Of a DNA stretch of 64,000 nucleotides, positions 3,173-12,085 are shown piece after piece. Source of the DNA: an uncultured Lachnoclostridium sp. (lineage in GTDB: Bacteria; Bacillota; Clostridia; Lachnospirales; Lachnospiraceae); assembly GCA_946415315.1 (NCBI GenBank), contig CAMKRZ010000010.1, forward strand, positions 19,058-83,057. The letters run 5' to 3'. How positions within the stretch are numbered: the first letter of the stretch is position 1; each line of letters opens with the position of its first letter. The notes under the pieces were generated by a model. The model worked only from the letters and a program-made list of their open reading frames with translations, ran no database searches and was not told the origin of the DNA. Both the position numbers and the translations under genes were made by a program.

Positions 3173-4711
3173 ATGGACAATGTTAACCCTCTCACCCGTA
3201 CGGATTATCCGGATCCCGATGTGATCCGCGTGGATGACACCTACTACATGGTGAGCACGACGATGTATTATATGCCGGGCGGCGTGATCCTGCGATCCTA
3301 CGATCTGGCCAACTGGGAGATCACGGCGTATCTGTTCGATGAACTCGATGGCACACCCGCGGAACGTCTTCAGGACGGGCAGAACTGCTACGGCAAGGGC
3401 ATGTGGGCGGCGAGCCTGCGGTACCATGAGGGACGGTTCTATGTCATTTTCGTAAGCCATGGTCAGGAAAATACGCATCTCTTCACGGCGACCGATATCG
3501 CCGGTCCCTGGGAGCACCGCCGCATCCGCGGGTATTTTCATGACTGCTCGCTGTATTTTGCGGAGGACGGACGAAAGTTCCTTGTCTCCGGCAATACGGA
3601 GATTCACCTGACGGAGCTGTCGGAGGACATGACGGCGCCGAAGGAGGGCGGCATCGACAAGGTGATCGTGCGCGATGACCGCGAGAAGGTGTTCCTCGGA
3701 TACGAAGGCGCGCATCTCTATAAGATTGACGGGCGGTATGTTCTTGCGCTGATCCACTGGCCGAAGGAGACACAGAGGCGCACTGAGGCGGTGTTCATCA
3801 GCGATACCATCGACGGGGATTACGTTGGGCGCGACCTGTTCTGGGACGACGGCGGCTACTGCGGACAGGGAATCGCCCAGGGCGGCCTTGTGGACACGCC
3901 GGACGGGCGGTGGTTCGCCGTTTTGTTCCGAGACTCCGGCGCGGTCGGAAGAATCCCGATGCTTGTGCCGGTGACGTGGAAGGACGGCTGGCCGGTGTAT
4001 GGGGACGACGGTCTGCTGCCCGAGAAGATTGATGTTGTGAGCACAAGACCGGGGTATGAATATGCGCCGCTTTTCGTGTCAGATCGGTTCGACAGTCCTG
4101 AGATCAAGCCGCAGTGGCAGTGGAACCATGTGCCGGATCACGAGAGATGGTCAATCCTGCCGGAGGGCGGACTTGCGATCACGACCGGCGCCGTGTGCGC
4201 GAACCTGACGCAGGCGAGAAATACGCTCACACAGCGGATGCGTTTCCCCGATTGCGAGGCGGAGGTCACTGTGGATGCCTCTGGGCTTACCGACGGCGAT
4301 TTTGCCGGAATGTGCGCTCTGCAGGGCGCGTACATGGCGGTGGGAATCCTCAGGGAGAACGGGCGTAAACTTCTCGCCGTGATCGAGAGGAAGGAGCCTT
4401 CGAAGGGCTTCGGGATCGGCGGCAACGACACGGAGCCGGGTGAGGTGACGTACCGCGAGGAGATCGCGGGGGACGTCATAACCGTCGGGATCCGTGCGGA
4501 CTTTTGGCAAATGAAGGACACGGCGGTTGCGTTCGTGAAGCGCAGCAAAAGGGATGCGGTTCACGGAAGCGGCGAGGCGGAGATCGTCGGCGAGCCGCAC
4601 AAGCTGTATTTCCGGCTGGATCATTTTACGGGGGCGCGGTTCGGACTCTGTGCGTTCTCGAGCGTAACGCCGGGAGGCACGGCGGTGTTCAAGGAGTTTG
4701 TGTATCGCTGA
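3173..4711 (+). CDS. Glycoside hydrolase family 43 (beta-xylosidase/arabinofuranosidase-like)
   Basis: NPLTRTDYPDPDVIRVDDTYYMVSTTMYYMPGG N-terminal GH43 signature; second beta-sandwich domain; ORF 3149..4711 with ATG at 3173. Confidence 0.88.
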   Translation: MDNVNPLTRTDYPDPDVIRVDDTYYMVSTTMYYMPGGVILRSYDLANWEITAYLFDELDGTPAERLQDGQNCYGKGMWAASLRYHEGRFYVIFVSHGQENTHLFTATDIAGPWEHRRIRGYFHDCSLYFAEDGRKFLVSGNTEIHLTELSEDMTAPKEGGIDKVIVRDDREKVFLGYEGAHLYKIDGRYVLALIHWPKETQRRTEAVFISDTIDGDYVGRDLFWDDGGYCGQGIAQGGLVDTPDGRWFAVLFRDSGAVGRIPMLVPVTWKDGWPVYGDDGLLPEKIDVVSTRPGYEYAPLFVSDRFDSPEIKPQWQWNHVPDHERWSILPEGGLAITTGAVCANLTQARNTLTQRMRFPDCEAEVTVDASGLTDGDFAGMCALQGAYMAVGILRENGRKLLAVIERKEPSKGFGIGGNDTEPGEVTYREEIAGDVITVGIRADFWQMKDTAVAFVKRSKRDAVHGSGEAEIVGEPHKLYFRLDHFTGARFGLCAFSSVTPGGTAVFKEFVYR

Positions 4712-4793
4712 GAAAAGGGTTGTACTCGCTGTTCCCGCGGGGGTGCGGGACGGTGATGATATACACGCAGATTACGAACAGACGGAGGAAGGT

Positions 4794-6533
4794 ATGGGGC
4801 ATTACAACAATTTCAAAACGGTGGTGTACATTCCCGCGGAGGTTGCGCAGAAACTGACCGCGGAGAAACTTGCGAGCGACTGGGCGTGGATTGAGAAGTA
4901 CATCGGGCTTGACAAGGTGTATCTGGAGACGCACAGGAACAACATCGATGTTCCGGCGGAGCATCTGCGGATGATCAGGGATTTCCTCGAGAGCAAGGGC
5001 GTGATCGTCTCCGGCGGGATCACCACGACAATCAATGATTTCGATGGCGCCGAGGGCGGCAAACAGCGGCTGTTCGGCACGTTCTGCTACACGGATCCTG
5101 CGATGCGCGCACGGCTCAAAGAGATCTCCGAGTACACGGCAGGGCTGTTCGACGAGATTATTCTGGACGACTTTTATTTTACGAACTGCACGTGTGAGCG
5201 GTGCATCCGCGAGAAGGGCAACCGGGACTGGGTGACGTTCCGGCGCGAGCTGATGAAGGATGTCTCGGAGAACCTTGTAGTGGGACCCGCGAAGGCTGTG
5301 AACCCGAAGGTCCGGATGATCATCAAATACCCGAACTGGCGCGAGTCATATCATTTTACGGGGTATGTGCCTGAGGTGCAGCGGGATATCTTCGACGCGA
5401 CGTACACCGGGACGGAGACGAGAAGCCCGCAGTACACGGATCAGCATTTGCCGGAGTATCTGAGCTACTCTCTGGTCCGCTATATGGAAAATGCGTGGCC
5501 CGGCCGGAACGGCGGCGGTTGGTTCGACACGTACGCATGCTGGTCGATCGACCGTTACCTTGAGCAGGCGTATCTTACCGCGTTTGCGCAGGCGAAGGAA
5601 CTGATGCATTTCCAGTGGAGCGACCTGATCGAGAACCCGATGCTCTCGGCGATGGCGCTGCAGCTCGGCAAGATCGACAAACTGATGGACGGCATCGGCA
5701 AGGCGTGCGGTGTGCCTGTGTACATTCCGTTCGCGTCGAGTGGGGAAAATCATCTCGAGATGCGGTTCGGCATGCTCGGACTTCCGATGGAGCCGACGCC
5801 GTTCTTCCCGGAGGGAGCAGCGAGCATGCTCCTCACCGAGAGCTCGCTGGCGGACGAGGATATTGTGGAGAAACTCGAACAATACGTCCGCGAGGGCGGC
5901 AATGCTGTCGTTACGACCGGGTTCTTCCGCGGGGCGGAGGAGAAACTTCGTGCGGCGGGACTTACCGAGGCACGGCTTTCCGGACGGAGCATTCCGGTGA
6001 CGCGTTACCAGGTGACCGGCGACTTCGCGGGATTTATCGAGCATCGAAAGACGATGTTCTTCCCGGAGATCGTTCACGGCAACAATGACTCGTGGTCGCT
6101 CTTAAACGGCGGCGACGGGGACACCCACAGCGCGCTTGTGCTGCGCCGCGCGTACGGAAAGGGACGGTTGTACATCGCGGCAATCCTGGACGGTGACAGC
6201 GGACTTTACGAGATGCCGAAGGCAGCCGTCGATGTCATCAAGAGAATTCTTACCGGCGGCGAGTATGTGTCCGGAAGAAACGTATCCGCGTTCACGTACG
6301 ACAGCGGTAGAATACTGCTGTATCGCTATGTTAAGGCAGATCTGAGACCGGAGAAGGTGACGCTTTATACCGAGCGGAAGAAGGCTGTTCTTGTCGACGA
6401 TCTGACCGGCATGAAGTATCCTTCTCACGAGGTGAGACGCTGGGAGGACTTCCGTCCGAGCGGCGGATCCTCGGCAGAGGTTTTGCTGCAGCCGGGTAAG
6501 TTTACAAAGGTGCACTGGGAAACCGAAGAGTAG
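4794..6533 (+). CDS. Putative glycoside hydrolase of unassigned family (TIM barrel plus amidotransferase-like domain)
   Basis: LFDEIILDDFYFTNCTCERC barrel-like segment; located between GH43 and GH10; ATG 4794 after GGAGGAAGG RBS. Confidence 0.6.
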   Translation: MGHYNNFKTVVYIPAEVAQKLTAEKLASDWAWIEKYIGLDKVYLETHRNNIDVPAEHLRMIRDFLESKGVIVSGGITTTINDFDGAEGGKQRLFGTFCYTDPAMRARLKEISEYTAGLFDEIILDDFYFTNCTCERCIREKGNRDWVTFRRELMKDVSENLVVGPAKAVNPKVRMIIKYPNWRESYHFTGYVPEVQRDIFDATYTGTETRSPQYTDQHLPEYLSYSLVRYMENAWPGRNGGGWFDTYACWSIDRYLEQAYLTAFAQAKELMHFQWSDLIENPMLSAMALQLGKIDKLMDGIGKACGVPVYIPFASSGENHLEMRFGMLGLPMEPTPFFPEGAASMLLTESSLADEDIVEKLEQYVREGGNAVVTTGFFRGAEEKLRAAGLTEARLSGRSIPVTRYQVTGDFAGFIEHRKTMFFPEIVHGNNDSWSLLNGGDGDTHSALVLRRAYGKGRLYIAAILDGDSGLYEMPKAAVDVIKRILTGGEYVSGRNVSAFTYDSGRILLYRYVKADLRPEKVTLYTERKKAVLVDDLTGMKYPSHEVRRWEDFRPSGGSSAEVLLQPGKFTKVHWETEE

Positions 6534-10178: not shown

Positions 10179-10207
10179 TTGACATTTTCCGAATGCACCT
10201 GTATAAT
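10179..10207 (+). promoter_or_regulatory. Consensus sigma-A promoter TTGACA-N17-TATAAT upstream of ABC-F leader
   Basis: TTGACA 10179-10184, TATAAT 10202-10207, 17-nt spacer, read directly. Confidence 0.9.
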
Positions 10208-10273
10208 CCGAAACTGTGAGCGTCATCAGACGACAAATACAAATACGCATGAGCGAGAAAGGGAGGTATACAA

Positions 10274-10345
10274 ATGATAGTAACAAAACGTTTTACCAAG
10301 ACACATTTGTATATTGCAGTTGCCTCCCGGAGAAACGCGGAATAA
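10274..10345 (+). CDS. 23-aa putative leader peptide MIVTKRFTKTHLYIAVASRRNAE
   Basis: GGGAGG Shine-Dalgarno just upstream of ATG 10274, TAA at 10343; lies between promoter and terminator upstream of ABC-F. Confidence 0.65.
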   Translation: MIVTKRFTKTHLYIAVASRRNAE

Positions 10346-10351
10346 TGCGGT

Positions 10352-10385
10352 AGTTCTATGCCTGTACTTTGCTTTGCATAGGATT
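10352..10385 (+). other. Leader RNA hairpin AGTTCTATGC / GCATAGGATT
   Basis: 10-bp stem including G-U wobbles, between leader ORF and terminator. Confidence 0.55.
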
Positions 10386-10401
10386 ATTTTGCCGATATTC
10401 A

Positions 10402-10433
10402 GCCCCGACACCGGAAGGTGCCGGGGCATTTTT
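10402..10433 (+). terminator. Intrinsic terminator in ABC-F leader
   Basis: GCCCCGACACC-GGAA-GGTGCCGGGGC stem (one mismatch) followed by ATTTTT; precedes the ABC-F start. Confidence 0.85.
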
Positions 10434-10534
10434 GCGTGCAAGCGAGCGCACGTACATGAGCAAACCGAATGAAATAAGGTTTGTGAAGCGTTTCAGGGGC
10501 AACTTTTTTCGGTAGAAAGGAAGTGATACCCTTC

Positions 10535-12085
10535 ATGTTTCAGATAAAAAATGTTACAATAACTCATAATAAGGATCTTCATACGATCCTGGAGAATTTC
10601 TCTCTTGTGCTGAACGACGGCGATCGTGTCGTGATGATCGGCGAGGAGGGAAACGGAAAGTCCACTCTGATGAAGTGGATCTATGATCCGGAGCTTGTCG
10701 ACGATTACATCGATTACAGCGGCGAGAAGATCATGAGCGGTGAGAAACTCGGATATTTGCCGCAGGAGCTTCCGGAAGAGGCAAAGCACAAGACGGTCTG
10801 CGAGTACTTCTGCGAGAGCGCGGATTTTCTCGACAGGACGCCGAAGGAACTGTCCAAAATGGCGTCGGACTGCCACGTGGAACCGGAGTTTTTCTACCGC
10901 GAGCAGGAGATGTGCACACTCTCCGGCGGCGAGCGCGTGAAGGCGCAGATGATGCGCATCCTCGTGGAAAATCCGACGATCCTGCTGTTGGATGAGCCGT
11001 CGAACGACATTGATATCGAGACGCTTGAGTGGATGGAGGAATTGATCAACAGCTGGCCGCACGCGGTGCTGTTCATCTCACACGATGAGACGCTGATCGA
11101 GCGAACGGCGAACCGCGTGGTGCATTTCGAGCAGTTGAGACGCAAGACAATGTGCCGGCACACCGTGGCCAACGTGCCGTACCGTCAGTACGTTGAGGAG
11201 CGTCAGAATTCGTTTGAGAAGCAGGAACAGATCGCGCAGTGCGAACGGCGCGAGAAGCGCATCCGCGACGAGAAGATCCGGAAGATGGAGCAATCCGTGA
11301 ACTCGCAGCTGAGCAACGCGCACTATTCGTTCCACGACGCGATCGGGCGGCTTCTCAAGAAGAAAATGAAGAGCGTCAAGTCGCTCGAGCATCGCTTCGA
11401 GCGCGAGGACGAGAACATGACCGAGATGCCGGAGCAGGAGGAGGCGATCTTCTTCAAACTCGGCGACGAAAACAGCGCGATCCCGTCCGGCAAGTGGGTC
11501 GTCCAGTGTGACATCCCGGCGCTTACAACGCTGGACGGCAGTCGTGTTCTGTCGGAAAATGTCATCCTGAAGGTACGCGGTTCCGAGAAGATCGGGATCA
11601 TCGGCTACAACGGCTGCGGCAAGACGACGCTGATCTCAAAGATCGCGGAGGAACTGCTGGCAAGGCCGGATCTGCGGGCACAGTACATGCCGCAGAATTA
11701 CGAGGAACTCCTGGATCTTGACGAGACACCGGTTGATTATCTGGACACGACCGGGGACAAGGAGGAGCGGACGCGGATCCGCACGTATCTTGGTTCGCTC
11801 AAGTACACGGCGGATGAGATGGATCATCCGATCCGGGAACTGTCGGGCGGGCAGAAGGCGAAGGTTTTGCTGCTGAAACTCAGTATGTCCGGGGCGAACG
11901 TGCTCATTCTCGACGAGCCGACGCGGAATTTTTCGCCGCTGTCGGGACCGGTGATCCGGCGGATGCTCAAGGATTTTCCGGGCGCGATCATCAGTGTTTC
12001 GCACGACCGCAAATACCTTGTGGAGGTGTGCGATACCATTTATCGAATGAGCGCCGACGGACTGACCGCGGAAGCGCCGATGTGA
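10535..12085 (+). CDS. ABC-F family ATPase (possible ribosomal-protection type)
   Basis: Two ABC domains, Walker A GEEGNGKS and GYNGCGKT, LSGGE/LSGGQ signatures, no TM; alternative GTG start at 10523. Confidence 0.9.
   Translation: MFQIKNVTITHNKDLHTILENFSLVLNDGDRVVMIGEEGNGKSTLMKWIYDPELVDDYIDYSGEKIMSGEKLGYLPQELPEEAKHKTVCEYFCESADFLDRTPKELSKMASDCHVEPEFFYREQEMCTLSGGERVKAQMMRILVENPTILLLDEPSNDIDIETLEWMEELINSWPHAVLFISHDETLIERTANRVVHFEQLRRKTMCRHTVANVPYRQYVEERQNSFEKQEQIAQCERREKRIRDEKIRKMEQSVNSQLSNAHYSFHDAIGRLLKKKMKSVKSLEHRFEREDENMTEMPEQEEAIFFKLGDENSAIPSGKWVVQCDIPALTTLDGSRVLSENVILKVRGSEKIGIIGYNGCGKTTLISKIAEELLARPDLRAQYMPQNYEELLDLDETPVDYLDTTGDKEERTRIRTYLGSLKYTADEMDHPIRELSGGQKAKVLLLKLSMSGANVLILDEPTRNFSPLSGPVIRRMLKDFPGAIISVSHDRKYLVEVCDTIYRMSADGLTAEAPM

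Follow-up and report, generated by a model that had tools for sequence, protein, structure and literature searches.

In ermC-type translational attenuation, four RNA regions around a leader ORF pair either as 1:2 and 3:4 or as 2:3. At msrDL, the ribosome blocks the terminator hairpin directly. The chromosomal ABC-F resistance genes vmlR, vmlR2, cplR and lsaA are preceded by uORFs reported to be 3-4 codons long (PMC10201436), and at cplR and vmlR the leader attenuates the ABC-F gene at the level of both translation and transcription (PMC10201436, PMC9226507). The cplR leader of Clostridioides difficile (uORF MRI) contains a terminator stem that hides the Shine-Dalgarno sequence (SD) of the gene (PMC10201436). 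In the vmlR leader of Bacillus subtilis (uORF MIN), the uORF and terminator are followed by a hairpin that sequesters the SD and opens when upstream RNA pairs with it in read-through transcripts (PMC9226507). The leader ORF bmrB of B. subtilis regulates the drug transporter bmrCD through an antiterminator mechanism, with the terminator inside the leader ORF (PMC4191407).

The locus described here lies within a window of 64,000 nucleotides from an uncultured Lachnoclostridium sp. (contig CAMKRZ010000010.1), where a promoter, a uORF and a terminator-like hairpin precede an ABC-F gene, as they do at vmlR and cplR (Table 1). A preliminary description of the window had listed a sigma-A promoter, a 23-codon ORF with its SD, a hairpin, an intrinsic terminator and, about 100 nt beyond it, the ABC-F start, and all of these were located in that order and at those places. 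The promoter, described as perfect, matched the consensus at 12/12 positions (TTGACA at 10179-10184, a 17-nt spacer, TATAAT at 10202-10207), was the sole such site in the 6.5 kb between 7500 and 14000, and was kept as TTGACA-N17-TATAAT or TATCAT in 16 of the 19 loci listed. Two items needed amendment: the first hairpin is present, but measured 6-9 bp on recount rather than 10, and the terminator called strong has its hairpin and A-UUUUU in the window but a weak or lost U-tract in some relatives. At the position of the 5'-end hairpin, relatives carried a hairpin of other sequence (by eye; for example UGUCAG-AGUG-CUGACA in locus L009). The leader region folded at -107.5 kcal/mol, compared with -84.6 kcal/mol in shuffled sequences (z -4.7), and beat all 100 shuffles. 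Two further segments had been missed: the SD-complementary 3' end of the leader ORF (segment A) and a complementary segment past the terminator (segment B).

Table 1 Features of the ABC-F leader region and gene; positions are those of the window.
Feature	Position	Strand	Evidence
Sigma-A promoter TTGACA-N17-TATAAT	10179-10207	+	12/12 match; conservation in 16/19 loci
5'-end hairpin CGUC-AUCA-GACG near the likely transcription start	10221-10232	+	Sequence, read by eye
Small hairpin CGC-AUGA-GCG directly before the leader SD	10246-10255	+	Alignment; 82% of cells paired
Region 1, leader SD GGGAGG, complementary to CCUCCC in A	10261-10266	+	Alignment
Leader ORF MIVTKRFTKTHLYIAVASRRNAE-stop, 23 codons	10274-10345	+	ORF kept in 19/19 loci
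Region 2 (A), leader ORF 3' end AGUUGCCUCCCGGAGAAACGC, alternative partner of regions 1 and 3	10318-10338	+	
Variable middle hairpin CUAUGC...GCAUAG	10356-10381	+	Fold; sequence conserved in near relatives only
Terminator-like hairpin, GNRA loop, short U-tract	10402-10433	+	Hairpin sequence kept wherever readable
Region 3 (B), GCGUUUCAGGGGCAACUU, complementary to A	10488-10505	+	A:B -22.8 kcal/mol; co-evolution test
Region 4, ABC-F SD AAAGGAAG within predicted hairpin AGGGGCAACUUUUUUC-GGUA-GAAAGGAAGUGAUACCCUU	10516-10523	+	Fold
ABC-F protein, 516 aa, two nucleotide-binding domains and helical linker	10535-12085	+	NCBIfam and PDB matches

The distribution of the leader followed that of the gene. 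Thirteen of 22 genomes of the genus carried an orthologue of the ABC-F gene at 80-100% identity, and a covariance model of the leader (R1, built from 17 sequences) matched exactly these 13 genomes and no other; one additional match in the window's own genome was at chance level (E 0.09). Over 397 family genomes, R1 identified two further genera (g74 and g90) in which the leader lies before the same ABC-F gene. A pattern scan of the GTDB collection returned 15 Lachnospiraceae contigs, those with a named source coming mostly from the rumen and related stomach compartments. It also returned four matches, to an archaeal MAG and three Deltaproteobacteria, that ran into long ORFs with no ABC-F gene behind them and were taken as chance. 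Weak model matches at L099, L100, L101, L103 and L095 were set aside as coding or unrelated sequence.

The leader and its A segment were kept in all 19 loci examined, some of which are near-copies. The leader was 22-24 codons long in every locus, beyond the 3-4 codons of very short uORFs, and A occupied the same reading frame at the ORF end throughout. A distance of 21 nt separated the beginning of A from the stop codon in 18 of the 19 loci, and the distance from A to the start codon varied by whole codons. That the leader length thus changes by entire codons, and that loci differ in which stop codon they use (TAA, TAG or TGA), argues that the leader ORF is translated. No Rfam family reached its gathering threshold in the window, the best sub-threshold matches being at chance level, and no description of the element was found in Rfam or in the literature searched. 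The conservation argues against a chance origin, and these comparisons indicate that the element is a conserved leader-ORF regulatory element of the ABC-F gene, probably read by stalled ribosomes. We regard it as a real, conserved variant of ribosome-mediated attenuation with a moderately supported mechanism.

Segment A (GCCUCCCGGAGAAGCGC) is encoded by the last codons of the leader. The leader peptides otherwise varied: the middle codons diverged, while the 3' end GCCUCCCGGAGAAGYGC was constant and its core CCTCC[C/T]GGAG was present in all loci. The leader peptide, which had not been recognised in the preliminary description, belonged to no family in the tools used. SRR stood at the C-terminus of 17 of the 19 leaders listed, as would be expected of a drug- or peptide-specific arrest peptide resembling the macrolide-arrest motifs. 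However, the TCC, CGG and AGA codons of the SRR loci showed zero synonymous changes despite their six-fold degeneracy. The two remaining leaders, L053 (SWR) and L098 (SWS), replace arginine with tryptophan, yet in both CCUCCU accompanies the leader SD AGGAGG in place of CCUCCC with GGGAGG. A ribosome stalled at SRR would, moreover, cover A and leave the switch proposed below in its off state. The arrest peptide was rejected as highly improbable, codons rather than residues having been kept, and the invariant codons and the complementarity in L053 and L098 indicated that the RNA, not the peptide, is conserved. The aligned core of the leader SD and A was paired in 17/17 loci but is nearly invariant, and it therefore carries almost no covariation information. 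The leader SD of vmlR is single-stranded, whereas the one described here is complementary to the last codons of the ORF that it serves.

Segment B, which is complementary to A, lies past the terminator-like hairpin and shortly before the ABC-F ribosome-binding site. In 15/15 loci, A paired with its own downstream region better than did reversed A. Matched A and B segments paired at -23.96 kcal/mol, compared with -21.86 kcal/mol when B was swapped among loci, and 47 of 20,000 permutations were as good (129 of 5,040 for seven subclade representatives), although the close relationship of the loci makes the tests partly dependent on one another and the author chose the B windows after inspection. 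Shuffles of single loci were as good in 0-41 of 300 cases across loci, with a modest 26 of 300 for the window. The pairing reached 14 perfect bp in L005 and 9+8 or more bp in L003, and in L001 the sequence GAAACGC in A was complemented by GCGTTTC in B. The sequence evidence for co-evolution of A and B was good but not conclusive. In 8 of 15 ABC-F loci, B ended 22-31 nt before the ABC-F start and left the SD clear. Because B is located past the terminator, it would act on read-through transcripts only.

The spacer between hairpin and B, which occupies 10434-10487 in the window, ranged from ~10 to ~190 nt among the window, L003, L005, L011 and L034, and GAGCGCACGTACATGAGC-type sequence was common to relatives, a pattern that would suit the insertion of an element. 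A repeat element at this position was considered and discarded, the sequence being single copy in the window's genome (<=2 mismatches).

The alternative 1:2 and 2:3 pairings, with region 2 inside the leader ORF, follow the same logic as ermC-type attenuation, and the leader ORF is of similar length. The locus differs from that type in that SD and anti-SD motifs are themselves the switching strands, the leader is not conserved as an arrest peptide, and a conserved terminator-like hairpin lies between regions 2 and 3, where the ermC type has no terminator between leader and gene. This hairpin (GCCCCGACACC-GGAA-GGTGCCGGGGC, 10402-10427) contains one A.C mismatch and a GNRA loop and is followed by A-UUUUU. 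Its sequence was conserved in all readable loci, L011 being masked by N. The number of T residues in the first nine bases past the stem ranged from 1 in L004, where the tract is lost, through 4 in L006, L009 and L010, up to 8 in L034. Where the U-tract had been lost, the hairpin nevertheless retained both its sequence and its GNRA loop, which is more than an intrinsic terminator requires. Pairing of the hairpin loop CCGGAAGG with CCUCCCGG was dropped as a candidate, since by eye it was broken in L012 and L034 while the GNRA loop was kept.

Classical transcription attenuation, in which stalled ribosomes would allow an antiterminator to prevent the terminator as at vmlR and bmrCD, is consistent with the order of promoter, leader ORF and hairpin, with the U-rich tail of most loci, and with the use of terminators by vmlR, cplR, msrD and bmrCD. 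In addition, before the 3' arm of the hairpin exists, A paired weakly with the 5' arm in the stalled state of several loci. However, when full and truncated transcripts of 15 loci were folded by partition function with ribosome footprint masks, the hairpin formed at ~100% in 15/15 loci, whether there was no ribosome, one stalled at the start or one at the stop codon. The same folding yielded no robust antiterminator that excludes the hairpin, and a conserved antiterminator strand was absent. The stop codon is 53-69 nt before the hairpin, a distance at which a ribosome at the stop could not block the hairpin directly, unlike at msrDL. The lost or weak U-tracts also count against this explanation, which leaves the conserved B segment unaccounted for, and we consider it distinctly unlikely.

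These results divide the earlier proposal of antibiotic-inducible ribosome-mediated attenuation: a conserved leader-ORF element of an ABC-F gene was borne out, but the transcription-attenuation logic was not supported by folding. It had suggested aligning leaders in search of covariation and an antiterminator; folding found no antiterminator of the kind described for vmlR, and co-variation appeared between A and B. The likeness to vmlR-type loci holds for the uORF and terminator before an ABC-F gene, and for a predicted SD-hiding hairpin beyond them that upstream RNA would open on read-through transcripts, and fails in the strict sense, since the uORF has 22-24 codons where that of vmlR has 3.

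A combination of both layers, with a drug-responsive or constitutive terminator keeping the basal transcript low and an A:B translational switch acting beyond it, has a precedent in cplR, where translational and transcriptional attenuation synergise (PMC10201436). The locus shares with cplR the ABC-F gene, uORF, terminator hairpin and, by prediction, a sequestered SD. It differs in that the cplR uORF has 3 codons against 22-24, and in that the 3' end of the leader ORF has its pairing partner in a separate B segment past the hairpin, whereas in cplR the terminator stem hides the SD. Hairpin and A:B features were conserved side by side, but folding revealed nothing in the structure that would tie the hairpin to the position of the ribosome. 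We rate this combination at somewhat less than an even chance; the terminator may add a layer here too, as it does at cplR and vmlR.

In the masked folds, A:B comprised a mean of 12.1 bp with a ribosome at the start codon, 1.0 bp with a ribosome at the stop codon and 10.3 bp with none; in L053 and L098, A:B was not formed in the full-length fold. The ABC-F SD was unpaired at a mean of 0.33 in the stalled state versus 0.23 with a ribosome at the stop, a small effect seen in 10 of 15 loci, and co-evolution between B and the ribosome-binding site was marginal (959 of 20,000). In the window, B was part of the predicted hairpin hiding AAAGGAAG. Given the 21-nt distance from A to the stop codon, a ribosome that reads the leader unhindered should cover A, and one that stalls early should release it. 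The ribosome-free full-length fold already favours A:B, and thus the off state would rest on ribosomes covering A.

We favour, at a probability of about 0.5, a ribosome-controlled translational cis-RNA switch in which pairing of the leader SD with A alternates with pairing of A with B and the terminator-like hairpin lies between the arms. The switch is built on the conservation of the element, the fixed distance from A to the stop codon, the A:B complementarity with its co-evolution and the SD:A complementarity. Stalling, drug dependence, the sign of the effect and the role of the hairpin would enter as follows. Without drug, ribosomes would translate the 23 codons, dwell at the stop codon and cover A; between ribosomes, A would pair with the leader SD (1:2). 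B would then be free and help to hide the ABC-F ribosome-binding site, and some transcripts would terminate at the terminator-like hairpin. An antibiotic would stall the ribosome on the first leader codons, with the leader SD occupied, and the freed A would pair with B in those transcripts that read through, so that the ABC-F SD would stay accessible.

A more elaborate form of this switch is tentative and rather doubtful. In it, A (anti-SD plus SD-like) and B (the reverse complement of A) would each mask one SD while separate and release both on pairing, so that sensor ORF and output gene open together. Such a mirrored anti-SD module would have arisen from a four-codon Met-x-x-Arg uORF extended past its stop and would also have been placed on an ABC exporter operon.

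The ABC-F protein scored 357 bits against NCBIfam ribo_prot_ABC_F, below the cut-off of 380, with Vga, CplR, Msr, Sal and Lsa far below, and no named resistance family of ARE ABC-F proteins was matched above its cut-off. Sequence and fold matches in the PDB included VmlR2, VgaL, Sal and PoxtA and also Uup and EttA, the best fold match being VmlR2. The predicted structure (pLDDT 89.9) had a helical inter-domain linker (helices 216-261 and 269-293) with a tip ~10 residues shorter than that of VmlR2. The second nucleotide-binding domain (11900-11950) reads LILDEPTRNFSPLSGP at Walker B, where DEPTNHLD is usual, and T-R-N-x-S-P-L-S-x-P was invariant in 35 ABC-F orthologues. The sub-threshold score, the mixture of resistance and housekeeping proteins among the PDB matches and the shorter linker loop would suit a housekeeping-like translation factor whose leader would respond to translation stress in general and not to an antibiotic. 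Such a gene would not be expected to be as patchy as this one (13/22 genus genomes and 35/249 family genera), and resistance ABC-F genes typically have inducible uORF leaders; we therefore consider a housekeeping role unlikely. From the patchy distribution and the inducible-type leader, a resistance function is plausible.

The leader was also found before another type of gene. In L050 (Lachnospiraceae RGIG6971; JAFYCS010000024.1, about 4533-5100, reverse strand), the same promoter type, the leader MMSYCIRRHSYIVDIVFTSRRRA with its A segment and the hairpin precede two adjacent ABC exporter genes, a likeness to bmrB-bmrCD. The SD of the exporter itself falls within the stretch that matches A, and the sign of control may consequently be opposite there. 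At L102 (1520-1900), a 24-codon leader, MMIKLRTMKSVHNETVVTSEGFAK, ends in UUACCUC, complementary to its own SD GAGGUAA, and is followed by a hairpin with a U-tract upstream of another ABC exporter; this leader is possibly convergent.

In a family sample, the ABC-F orthologue was present in 36 of 250 genomes (35 of 249 genera). Orthologues at 50-67% identity mostly had no long leader and instead carried a 3-4-codon Met-x-x-Arg-stop uORF behind a GGTGAGG-like sequence, found at 18 loci compared with 0.3 in shuffles and absent from Rfam. At L055-L080, from other Lachnospiraceae genera, the mini-uORF behind GGTGAGG lay within a hairpin (AGATAATTTGATT...GGATTATCGC), on its 5' arm, and terminator-like sequence came after this hairpin. 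These mini-uORF leaders resemble the long leaders in standing upstream of orthologous ABC-F genes, and differ in length and in their hairpins, with no A or B seen. In the protein tree, the ABC-F genes with long leaders formed one group (support 100/100), and five long leaders begin with M-I-I-R or M-T-I-R (L009, L010, L013, L054 and L098). From these sequences, the likeliest history is that the long leader derived by extension of a minimal uORF of the MIN/MRI kind, as in vmlR and cplR. By inference, such a history is in keeping with ribosomes halted at the first codons by drugs whose block falls immediately after translation initiation (PMC10201436).

Within one gene family, a minimal uORF would thus have grown into a leader of 22-24 codons whose last codons form the proposed switching RNA strand. 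The proposed switch has named segments with testable pairing, and the leader element supplies a sequence model for finding inducible ABC-F genes in rumen bacteria.
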